Positions 10,715 through 39,413 of a stretch of DNA of 39,413 bases are shown in pieces. The position numbers and the translations under genes were made by a program. The DNA comes from Planctomycetales bacterium (GTDB lineage Bacteria; Planctomycetota; Planctomycetia; Pirellulales; S012-138). The first letter of the stretch is position 1. Each line of letters starts with the position of its first letter. The stretch covers positions 1 to 39,413 of the forward strand of contig WFOE01000139.1 in the NCBI GenBank assembly GCA_015488215.1, written 5' to 3'. The notes below the pieces were generated by a model. It saw nothing but the letters and a program-made list of their open reading frames with translations, had not been told where the DNA came from and searched no databases.

Positions 10715-11562
10715 TTTCTCGGTAGCCCTCATGGCGGCTGGTATTCGGCGAGCCACCGGCTTGGGCCGGAAGGTGTGAAACGCGTGGGGGCTTGGGGGCA
10801 TGGGGGCTTGGAGAGGAGCTTCCGCTCCGATGCGAGAATAAGCGCCGATTCTGGCACTCGGCGAGCCGGGGACTTCAGTCCCCGGAGGAAAAGAACGAGC
10901 AAGCGTTTTTCTCCGGACCTCCCCGGACTGAAGTCCGGGGCTCGCCAAACTAGCATCGCCGAAGCAGAGTTGGCTTGCGGCTTGCGCCAGGAGTTTCCGT
11001 TGCAGCGGCAAAACAGGCGTTTGTAGTCGTGCTCGTGCTCGTACTCGTAATCGGCAGCCCGTCATCGGTGAGCGCGAATCGCCAACTCGGCGAGCCGCCG
11101 ACTTTAGTCGGCGGAGGTGTGGAGGCTTGGAGGCGTGGGGGGATGGGGGGAGCTTCCGCTCCGATGTGAGAATAAACGCCGATTCTCGCAATCGGCGAAC
11201 CTTGAGCTTCAGCTCGGCGAGAACGCGAGCCGGCGGCGTCAGCCTCCGGAAAGGCTCGTCGCTGCGCAGGTTCATGGCGGCTCCTGCTGTGCCCATTCAC
11301 GACTGGCTGCGCAGTTGGCAGGCCCGGGGCCCCCGATAGCCGCTCCAGGGGTGGGAGCAGTCCTTCGACAGCCTCCCTCCGGCTTGTTTGCTTGCGCGGC
11401 GTTCTTTGTGCAGCCGGAAGGGGCCGGGTTGGTGTTGCCCTGCAGGGGGCAAGTGCGTAAAAGGGCCTCCCCCCTCGGAAAACGCCAGAGACTTGCCCTG
11501 GGCCCGTTCGCCCCCTCCGGTGCGACCGGAAGCGACAAGCCCCGGCTGGACTGCTAGCTAAT
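10715..11562. repeat. Repeat-rich intergenic region with multiple covarying hairpins
   Basis: About 850 bp without a supported gene. Hairpins: GGAGC-TTCC-GCTCC at 10815-10828 and 11149-11162; CCGGGGACTTCAGTCCCCGG at 10866-10885; CCCCGGACTGAAGTCCGGGG, the inverted orientation, at 10921-10940; CCGCCGACTTTAGTCGGCGG at 11095-11114; GAGC-TTCA-GCTC at 11204-11215; and a one-mismatch stem at 11230-11249 with a GTCA loop. Several are preceded by GGCGAGCC and followed by GGAGG. A GTGCTCGTGCTCGTACTCG tract (11028-11046), next to a decayed hairpin (about 10990-11004), is an inverted copy of the composite unit seen at 26641 and 39270. 11250-11562 holds little else: a TTGCCC/GGGCAA stem at 11435-11452 and the ribosome site of the next gene. 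Confidence 0.85.
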
Positions 11563-18106: not shown

Positions 18107-18212
18107 TATAATATATGAGAAGCCGCCGCCTGGCCGGATGCAAGAATCGGCTCAGTTCCCGCTTTGGTGCGGAAGCACCGTGCGCAAGCCGCAGGGTGCA
18201 CGGCGCAAGCCC
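18107..18212. repeat. Intergenic hairpin repeat between the two ceramidase-like genes
   Basis: Contains GGTGC-GGAA-GCACC (18166-18179), the same hairpin type as at 26689 and 26744, with a CAAGAATCGGC lead-in and a GTGCGCAAGCCGCA tail shared with other copies. A TTATAATATATG stretch (18107-18118) is the most AT-rich spot nearby and reads as a possible -10 on either strand, but I see no matching -35 box. Confidence 0.6.
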
Positions 18213-20714: not shown

Positions 20715-20802
20715 GTGGGTTACAAGCAGGCCCGGTGCCGCCACGCCGGCAAGCCGCCGATTTGCGTCTGGGGGGTAAGCCAGCCAGTTTTTTCCGGCTC
20801 TG

Positions 20803-20828
20803 CCCGGACTGAAGTCCGGGGCTCGCCG
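20803..20828. repeat. Hairpin repeat CCCGGACTGAAGTCCGGG plus CTCGCC
   Basis: A perfect palindromic stem (20803-20820) followed by GCTCGCC. This is the minus-orientation copy of the GGCGAGCC-stem-ACTTCAGT-stem element found at 10859, 37150 and 39385. Confidence 0.8.
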
Positions 20829-26478: not shown

Positions 26479-26857
26479 AACACCGCTGGTCCGATGCACT
26501 ACGCGGCAAGGCTTTTTTGCCCGAGCTAATGCTCGGAGCTGGCCGATTGCAAGAACCGGCGTTTGTTCTTGCATTGATGCGGAAGCACCGTGCAAGCCGC
26601 TGGTCGCAAGCCGATTGCCGGTTGCCGATAACGAGCGGCCGAATTACGAATCACGAGTACGAGGACTATGAACGCTTGCTTTTCCGTTGGTGCGGAAGCA
26701 CCTCGCAAGGCGCAGGTCGCAAGCCGCAAGCCCCTTCCTGCCCGGTGCGGAAGCACCTTGCCCAAGACGCAAGACCCAAGACGCAAGACTTCTCCAAGTC
26801 GCCGGCTGGCCGAGGGGCAGCGCTCGTGGGCCTGCTTCCCAGCTCCTTGCCATCCGC
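26479..26857. repeat. Repeat-rich gap with three GGAA-loop hairpins and a composite unit
   Basis: CCGAGC-TAAT-GCTCGG (26521-26536), GATGC-GGAA-GCACC (26576-26589, one mismatch), GGTGC-GGAA-GCACC (26689-26702 and 26744-26757). 26641-26730 is a composite unit: a TCACGAGTACGAGGAC tract, then CGCTTGCTTTTCCG, the hairpin, then CAAGGCGCAGGTCGCAAGC. It matches 39270-39370 almost base for base outside the stem. It ends with several AAGACGCAAGACCCAAG-like short repeats (26763-26791). No gene seen. Confidence 0.85.
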
Positions 26858-34335: not shown

Positions 34336-35845
<1,510 letters not shown>

Positions 35846-35951
35846 CGTCCACACCGACGCACGAGAAGCGCCAACATTCCAACCTGCCGCTGTGGTTTCC
35901 AGCGGCCCGACAAAAAAACGAAACCGTTAGCCACCCTGACGAGGCTTTGCC

Positions 35952-36863
35952 ATGGTCAACCCCCGACGCCTGCAACGACGCCGGCGCTCGATTGCCAACA
36001 TCCGCAAGATCACCCGCACCATGGAACTGATTGCCACGGCGCGGTTCAAGCGGGCGTTGGAACGGGTCCATGCCGCCTCGGCCTACACGCAGCGCATCAC
36101 CCGAATCGTCCAGCGGCTGGCCACGGCCGGGCTGGAGGTGAGCCATCCGCTGCTGGAACCCCGGCCGGAAATCCGCTCCGCCCGGGTGCTGGTGCTCACT
36201 TCCAACCGGGGCTTGTGCGGCGGATACAACGCCAACGTGCTCCGGGCAGCCATGGAACACTGGGACCAGTGCCGCCAGTTACCGGAGGCGGCGTTGGAAG
36301 TCTCGGGCAAACGGGGAATCTCCTTCTTCCGTTTCCGCCACATCGAGCCGGACCAGGAATACCTGCACCTGGCCGAAAAGCCCACCTTCGACGAAGTGGA
36401 ACGCCTGGCCGAAGGTTACCTGGAACAGTTTACGTCCGGCCGTCTGGACCGGCTCGACGTCATCTACACCCGATTCATCAGCACCGCCCAGCAGCAGGTG
36501 GTGGTGGAAACCCTGCTGCCGATGAGCCACCTGGAAGAAGAACCGGCCCCAGAGAAAAAAGCCCAGGCCGAAGAACCGCCCGCGAGCCGAGGCGTGGTCC
36601 CCTACGAGTTTCTGCCCTCGGCCGCTTCGATCCTGGAAGAGATTGTGCCGGTCAGTTTCAAGACGCGGCTGTTCAAGTGCTTCCTGGACGCCGTGGTCAG
36701 CGAACAGATTGCCCGAATGGTGGCCATGAAAGCCGCCACCGAAAACGCCGAAGAGCTGCTCAAGAGCATCACCCGGGAATACAACCGGGCCCGCCAGTCG
36801 CGCATCACCTCCGAACTGCTGGACGTGATGGGCGGCGTGGAGGCCTTGCGCGGCTCCTCGTAG
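35952..36863 (+). CDS. atpG: ATP synthase F1 subunit gamma
   Basis: A 303-residue rotor shaft. The N-terminal helix has NPRRLQRRRRSIANIRKITRTMELIATARFKRA; the middle has the conserved LTSNRGLCGGYNANV; the C-terminal helix has MKAATENAEELL and REYNRARQSRITSELLDVMGG. A short acidic Pro/Glu/Lys insert (EEEPAPEKKAQAEEPPAS, about 196-213) makes it slightly longer than E. coli gamma (287). GAGG at 35941-35944 precedes the ATG. A repeat-filled gap of 440 bp follows before atpD. Confidence 0.98.
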   Translation: MVNPRRLQRRRRSIANIRKITRTMELIATARFKRALERVHAASAYTQRITRIVQRLATAGLEVSHPLLEPRPEIRSARVLVLTSNRGLCGGYNANVLRAAMEHWDQCRQLPEAALEVSGKRGISFFRFRHIEPDQEYLHLAEKPTFDEVERLAEGYLEQFTSGRLDRLDVIYTRFISTAQQQVVVETLLPMSHLEEEPAPEKKAQAEEPPASRGVVPYEFLPSAASILEEIVPVSFKTRLFKCFLDAVVSEQIARMVAMKAATENAEELLKSITREYNRARQSRITSELLDVMGGVEALRGSS

Positions 36864-38752
<1,889 letters not shown>

Positions 38753-39184: not shown

Positions 39185-39413
39185 ACGGCCCAGCCGGGCA
39201 AGAACTCAGCCGTGGTTGTTCGCCGCTGTTTTTTGGGCAAACCATCAGGCGACTCGACTCAGTGATTCGTAATCGGCGATTACGAGCACGAGTAGGAGTA
39301 CGAGTGCACGCGCTTGTTTTTCCGCTGGAGCGGAAGCTCCTTGCGCAAGGCGCAGGTCGCAAGCCGCAAGACCATTCCCGCCGTGGCGAGCCCCGGACTT
39401 CAGTCCGGGGAGA
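39185..39413. repeat. Composite hairpin repeat after atpC, running off the window
   Basis: 39270-39370 carries a GATTACGAGCACGAGTAGGAG tract (39277-39297), CGCTTGTTTTTCCG, the hairpin GGAGC-GGAA-GCTCC (39327-39340) and CAAGGCGCAGGTCGCAAGC. It matches 26641-26730. At 39384-39413, GGCGAGCC leads into CCCCGGACTTCAGTCCGGGG (39391-39410). No gene seen. Confidence 0.85.

Follow-up and report, generated by a model that had tools for sequence, protein, structure and literature searches.

The intergenic hairpins described here are very probably REP-type DNA elements, one family of which, h2, would be the non-autonomous partner of an IS200/IS605-superfamily HUH/Y1 transposase of the TnpA-REP kind. A gene for such a transposase (tnpA) lies between outward-facing h2 hairpins in a sister genome, and the arrangement is seen again in further families of the order. 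The window, which is the whole 39,413-nucleotide stretch analyzed, is contig C139 of the 4.29-Mb planctomycete assembly G000; G003 and G004 are sister genomes in the genus. Statistics rest on samples of 663 kb from G000 (L009-L028, L170-L189 and the window) and 428 kb from G004, with genes predicted by a simple codon-usage caller.

All hairpins quoted in the first-pass annotation were found in the window, and their recurrence is real and genome-wide, but sequence inspection separates what had been pooled as one family into two, h1 and h2. The h2 unit consists of a GGCGAG foot, an 8-bp stem starting with CC, an NTNA loop (mostly TTCA, TTTA or GTCA) and an AG(G) tail. Family h1 reads GGWGC-TTCC-GCWCC, with a 5-bp stem and a TTCC loop; it has no GAG foot, which counts against the REP reading. 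The flanks proposed earlier, GGCGAGCC in front and GGAGG behind, are present, but the CC of the former and the first GG of the latter are stem bases, so that the foot is GGCGAG and the tail AGG. Conservation drops abruptly at the h2 ends, leaving a crisp 30-bp unit with unconserved flanks. A literature search for a prior description of the GGCGAGCC palindrome found none.

Both families are commoner than chance predicts. In the window, the pattern GAGCC-N5-C-NTNA-G-N5-GG is found seven times where dinucleotide shuffles predict 0.01, and GGWGCTTCCGCWCC, with at most one mismatch, 12 times where they predict 0.11. Genome-wide, G000 contains 106 exact copies of the strict h2 motif, 274 copies of GGAGCTTCCGCTCC and 493 copies with GGWGC..GCWCC (h1), while reversed-pattern controls gave 0. 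Within one genus, the strict h2 motif is present in three genomes (106, 183 and 6 copies); elsewhere among the 297 genomes sampled from the order it was found once. Among perfect 8-bp hairpins with a [TG]T[CT]A loop, the GGCGAG foot precedes 99 of 129 in the G000 sample and 190 of 291 in G004.

A covariance model recovers nine h2 copies in the window at E<=1.5e-5, starting at 10860, 10917 (minus strand), 11089, 11224, 20798 (minus strand), 36879, 36971, 37150 and 39385; h1 copies were located by motif match. The first cluster opens with an h1 hairpin, GGAGC-TTCC-GCTCC (10815..10828, plus strand), followed by an h2 doublet (10860..10946, plus strand), a REPIN-like unit with feet outward that joins GGGGA-class and CCGGA-class stems across a 31-bp spacer. 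Both halves have the GGCGAG foot and a TTCA loop; the left (10860..10889, plus strand) has stem CCGGGGAC (42.5 bits, E=1.1e-8) and the right (10917..10946, minus strand) stem CCCCGGAC (42.1 bits). Further h2 hairpins on the plus strand have stem CCGCCGAC with a TTTA loop (11089..11118, 42.2 bits) and stem CCGGCGGC with one mismatch and a GTCA loop (11224..11253, 31.2 bits). Between them lie a second GGAGC-TTCC-GCTCC h1 hairpin (11149..11162, plus strand) and a degenerate h2 hairpin, TTGAGC-TTCA-GCTCGG, that the model matches weakly (11194..11223, plus strand, 12.4 bits, E=0.33). Upstream of many h1 copies, for example at 10786-10814 and 11116-11148, lie degenerate, G-rich tandem repeats whose units measure 7-8 bp (cttgggg, gcgtggg and tcttgcg types). 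Further copies, all on the minus strand, are the GGTGC-TTCC-GCACC h1 hairpins at 18166..18179, 26689..26702 and 26744..26757 and a CCGGA-class h2 hairpin at 20798..20827 (29.9 bits).

A tandem h2/h1 array fills the gap between atpG (35952-36863) and atpD (37304-38752) on the plus strand (36864..37303). Its h2 members are a hairpin with stem CCGGGAGC and a TTCC loop that includes an h1 core at 36888-36901 (36879..36908, matched by motif and covariance model), one with a GCTGA/TCGGC stem, a single T-G mismatch and a TTTA loop (36971..37000), a decayed copy with foot GGCAAG and arms from two classes, GCCGA and TCCCC (37066..37095, 14.6 bits), and one with stem CCGGGGAC and a TTCA loop (37150..37179, 42.5 bits). 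These alternate with h1 hairpins at 36928..36941, 37022..37035 (GGTGC-TTCC-GCACC) and 37115..37128, and every copy in this array of the ATP synthase operon is sense-oriented. The gap before atpG (window 35771-35950) corresponds in G002 (L131) to a 7-bp-type tandem repeat, CCACTAA/CCACCAG, with no hairpins. At the end of the window are an h1 hairpin on the minus strand (39327..39340) and an h2 hairpin on the plus strand with stem CCCCGGAC and a TTCA loop (39385..39413), which reaches the last base.

Inverted h2 pairs mostly face outward, with 54-70 bp between their starts; outward pairs outnumber inward-facing ones 22:3 in G000 and 32:9 in G004. The resulting doublets are ~84-96 bp long with feet outward, as at 10860-10946, and when aligned they have an asymmetric spacer (e.g., AGCCGAATAAG...TTATTTTTC in G004). 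In a second sub-type the loop is GT[CA]A and the tail GGTTG. This ~84-96 bp doublet, with [GGC]GAG feet outward and a 20-40 bp spacer, is most likely the form in which h2 moves. None of 64 doublets (24 + 40) has the same stem class in both halves (permutation P<0.0002 in G000 and 0.014 in G004). In G075, from family f7 of the same order, four of ten doublets are homotypic; heterotypic halves are therefore a feature of this genus and no general rule. It is uncertain whether unequal halves serve merely to avoid a long hairpin: as single-stranded DNA the doublet in the window still forms a single long structure, and homotypic doublets occur in another family of the order. For h1, all 11 inverted pairs at a 32-bp pitch combine one GGTGC half with one GGAGC half. 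Tandem arrays have periods of ~98 bp and 88 bp. Three loci in G003 (L239, L240 and L241) contain alternating inverted h1 arrays with an 88-bp period (pitches of 32 and 56 bp), always pairing GGTGC with GGAGC.

Stem pairing was measured on h2 copies chosen by foot, loop and outer pairs, with the five inner pairs left free; an alignment of rows preselected as fully paired is perfectly paired by construction and carries no evidential weight. Fully paired stems make up 97 of 120 copies (81%) in G000, against 19% with shuffled arms, and 191 of 219 (87%) in G004, against 10%. The earlier statement that the fold is kept rather than the sequence is supported by this comparison. Its companion, that stem changes are compensated on both sides, is true between the main stem classes (~8 in G000 and ~15 in G004) but fails within them: when each distinct pair of arms is counted once, only 26% (G000) and 34% (G004) pair fully, and rare within-class variants are mostly uncompensated. 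Counted on the foot strand, the ratio of G-U-type to A-C-type mismatches is 13:6 and 13:15 for h2 and 15:16 and 10:21 for h1, and neither strand shows a G-U preference in either family. The compensatory changes with G-U tolerated on one strand that mark a structured RNA were thus not found. Paired classes, uncompensated private mutations and the lack of a G-U preference together indicate that pairing is enforced at copying, at the DNA level and not as RNA, and that single copies drift afterwards. Some h2 copies in G000 and G004 (e.g., 37066-37095) have 5' and 3' arms from different classes, as though the arms had recombined at the loop.

G004 contains five Pfam Y1_Tnp matches, four of them in one subfamily. 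Three intact tnpA genes sit between outward-facing hairpins whose sub-type differs from gene to gene: L152/L153 has a TTTA loop and a GGAG tail, L147/L157 a GTCA loop and a GGTTG tail, and L145/L160 an AGAG foot. Doublets of the first two sub-types are also found elsewhere in G004. At L152 the last codons of tnpA fall inside the hairpin. The same locus (G004:C494) has a ~120-bp h2-h1-h2 stretch as a near-identical direct repeat on both sides of tnpA, which suggests recent insertion or array recombination. The G004 proteins have HUH motifs and Y---Q and match Pfam Y1_Tnp above its cut-off; their nearest NCBIfam model is REP_Tyr_transpos, but at 38-41 bits against a cut-off of 80. An AlphaFold model, of low confidence at the C-terminus and in part of the N-terminal region, resembles ISDra2/IS608 TnpA and the REP-bound TnpA-REP structure 4er8. 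Searches for a Y1 transposase of the tnpA type in G000 and G003 found none; the association with a REP-type HUH/Y1 transposase is present in G004 and other families of the order, and not in the window's own genome. The G000 hairpins are probably an orphan population, maybe through loss of tnpA or an assembly gap at repeats. Another REP-like family of this genus is probably represented by h1, for which no transposase was found.

Across the order, the TnpA subfamily of G004 is present in 49 of 147 genomes. Of 36 tnpA-like loci, 20 have a perfect 8-bp hairpin with an xxAG foot, mostly CGAG or AGAG, within 350 bp on the left, 16 have one on the right and 16 have one on each side; among control windows, 18 of 320 contain such a hairpin. 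About half of the tnpA loci have no perfect flanking hairpin, which counts against the REP reading. At least five hairpins are present in 18 of 20 genomes with a strong tnpA and 17 of 127 others (p=1e-11), and in 9 of 11 versus 16 of 125 (p=3e-6) when genomes that seeded the model are left out; both tests treat genomes as independent, and counts near 50 per genome are lower bounds (at least that many). The 17 genomes with five or more hairpins and no strong tnpA also count against the REP reading.

Positions differ between close relatives. In G000 the atpG-atpD gap holds the tandem array; G004 has a different set of elements there, and in G003 the gap is 87 bp long and element-free. Of the gap pairs with elements compared between G004 and G000, four carry elements in G004 alone and one in G000 alone; in three, both genomes have elements, but of different content. 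Divergent (promoter) gaps are avoided in G000, with 3 of 71 occupied versus 71 of 289 other gaps (p=3e-5), and G004 shows the same trend (p=0.03). In co-directional gaps of G000, h1 follows gene direction in 37 of 46 (37:9, p=4e-5), and h2 does so more weakly (23:8). Such a bias would fit a transcript-level role; G004 shows no orientation bias along genes (h1 18:14). Hairpin orientation in G000 gave no signal against GC skew as a measure of replication.

We conclude that the hairpins very probably represent a REP/REPIN-TnpA system of known kind, set apart by a non-GTAG foot and by the heterotypic doublets of this genus. REPs and BIMEs with TnpA-REP (RAYT), as in the REPtrons of E. coli, Stenotrophomonas and Marinomonas, resemble h2 in hairpin length (20-30 bp), in the conserved 5' foot, in numbering hundreds of copies between genes, in forming inverted pairs and mosaics, and in having a hairpin-flanked tnpA (PMC8266576, PMC3733652). 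The window's elements are likewise short intergenic palindromes in high copy with a conserved foot at the hairpin. The likeness to REP-Mb of Marinomonas extends to the perfect stem and TTNA loop. TnpA-Mb requires a TTNA loop and a paired stem and selects its CT site mainly by the last two foot bases, AG (PMC8266576); these are what h2 conserves, and the design is the same. The foot differs, being GTAG there and GGCGAG or [AC]GAG here, and TnpA fits REP_Tyr_transpos only weakly; GT[AG]G, which is absent here, is the defining mark of the canonical superfamily, and elements with other feet have been described (PMC6006769). REPINs resemble the doublets as transposase-linked inverted REP pairs with a short spacer, presumed to be the mobile unit (PMC3116915, Bertels and Rainey 2011). 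Recurrent multi-copy inverted doublets with fixed spacing are found here too, but REPIN halves are described as symmetric (palindromic), of one REP type (PMC3116915), whereas those of this genus never share a stem class. The class 3 TnpA-Y1 proteins of Planctomycetes, Acidobacteria and Proteobacteria agree in phylum, NHVH and W[TA] motifs, a long conserved N-terminal region and atypical high-copy hairpins, but are reported with a CnGA foot and Y----Q (PMC6006769), where we find [AC]GAG and Y---Q.

An Rfam scan reached no family at gathering cut-offs, and lax thresholds gave only miRNA-type chance matches and a lead to RF01687, the Acido-Lenti-1 'RNA' (PMC2864571). The reverse strand of RF01687 has an xTAG foot, an 8-bp CC..GG stem and a GTNA loop, the layout of h2 with TAG in place of GAG. 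Window copies score 20.2-20.7 bits, below its gathering cut-off of 37. RF01687 itself passes that threshold in 59 of 294 planctomycete genomes, frequently as inverted pairs ~150 bp apart, and 3 of 30 loci picked by RF01687 only (L271, L275 and L284 among L255-L284) have a TnpA-like stretch between two outward hairpins, with weak protein matches (E 1e-3 to 1e-5). From its many copies, the inverted pairs and these stretches, RF01687 is probably a REP-type DNA element, a TAG-foot relative. The view that the hairpins belong to no named family therefore stands for the strict motif, confined to one genus, but not for the design, which is that of REPs and REPINs.

It is unlikely that the hairpins are structured RNAs or 3'-UTR elements, transcribed to stabilize or terminate mRNAs and kept for their RNA fold. 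Covariation between stem classes, location after genes and not at promoters, the sense bias of h1 in G000 and the array between atpG and atpD would all agree with such a role, but mismatches do not favor G-U on either strand, within-class mutations lack compensation, G004 has no orientation bias, some orthologous gaps lack copies, and the hairpins are linked to tnpA. The first-pass annotation leaned towards an RNA structure capped by a GNRA-type loop; that leaning is not supported, given the missing G-U preference, the absence of an Rfam match above cut-off and the way hairpins flank and track a single-stranded DNA transposase, and its alternative, a REP-like element, was the right reading. 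The hairpins may still have an exapted, secondary effect on transcripts. We consider intrinsic transcription terminators highly improbable: G+C-rich hairpins downstream of genes have the expected position, but the conserved unit has no following U-tract, the hairpins form footed outward doublets, their copies are restricted to one genus, and stopping at the arrays within the atp operon would lose atpD and the next gene.

Passive amplification of palindromes, in which tandem duplication and template-switch correction keep stems perfect with no transposase, would account for the tandem periods of ~98 and 88 bp, the stems that join arms of two classes and the failure to find tnpA in the window's own genome. 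It is nonetheless improbable, given that copies are dispersed over unrelated gaps, the same hairpins flank tnpA in several families, and hairpin abundance tracks tnpA. Duplication and template switching may remodel arrays after insertion. On the REP reading, TnpA would recognize single-stranded DNA, presumably of the lagging strand, by its foot, loop and paired stem, cut beside the hairpin and bring about insertion of copies into intergenic DNA. Stems would drift among paired classes, we propose, because TnpA needs pairing and not a given stem sequence, and copies would later decay by uncompensated mutation.

More tentatively, and with rather less than even confidence, we suggest that Planctomycetota hold a broad, largely undescribed group of REP-TnpA systems with xxAG feet, of which RF01687 would be one branch misfiled as RNA, and that in this genus the unit ends must differ in stem, either as an end-discriminating code or in avoidance of an unstable long palindrome. 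The Rfam entry RF01687 is worth re-examination as a DNA element. The h1 and h2 hairpins are also a clear example that stem covariation by itself does not prove RNA. Since several copies lie at contig ends, the hairpins may help explain assembly breaks in these planctomycetes. What appeared to be a new RNA family becomes a putative transposase-hairpin pair, open to testing, with natural variants of foot, loop and stem, useful for learning what TnpA-REP enzymes read.
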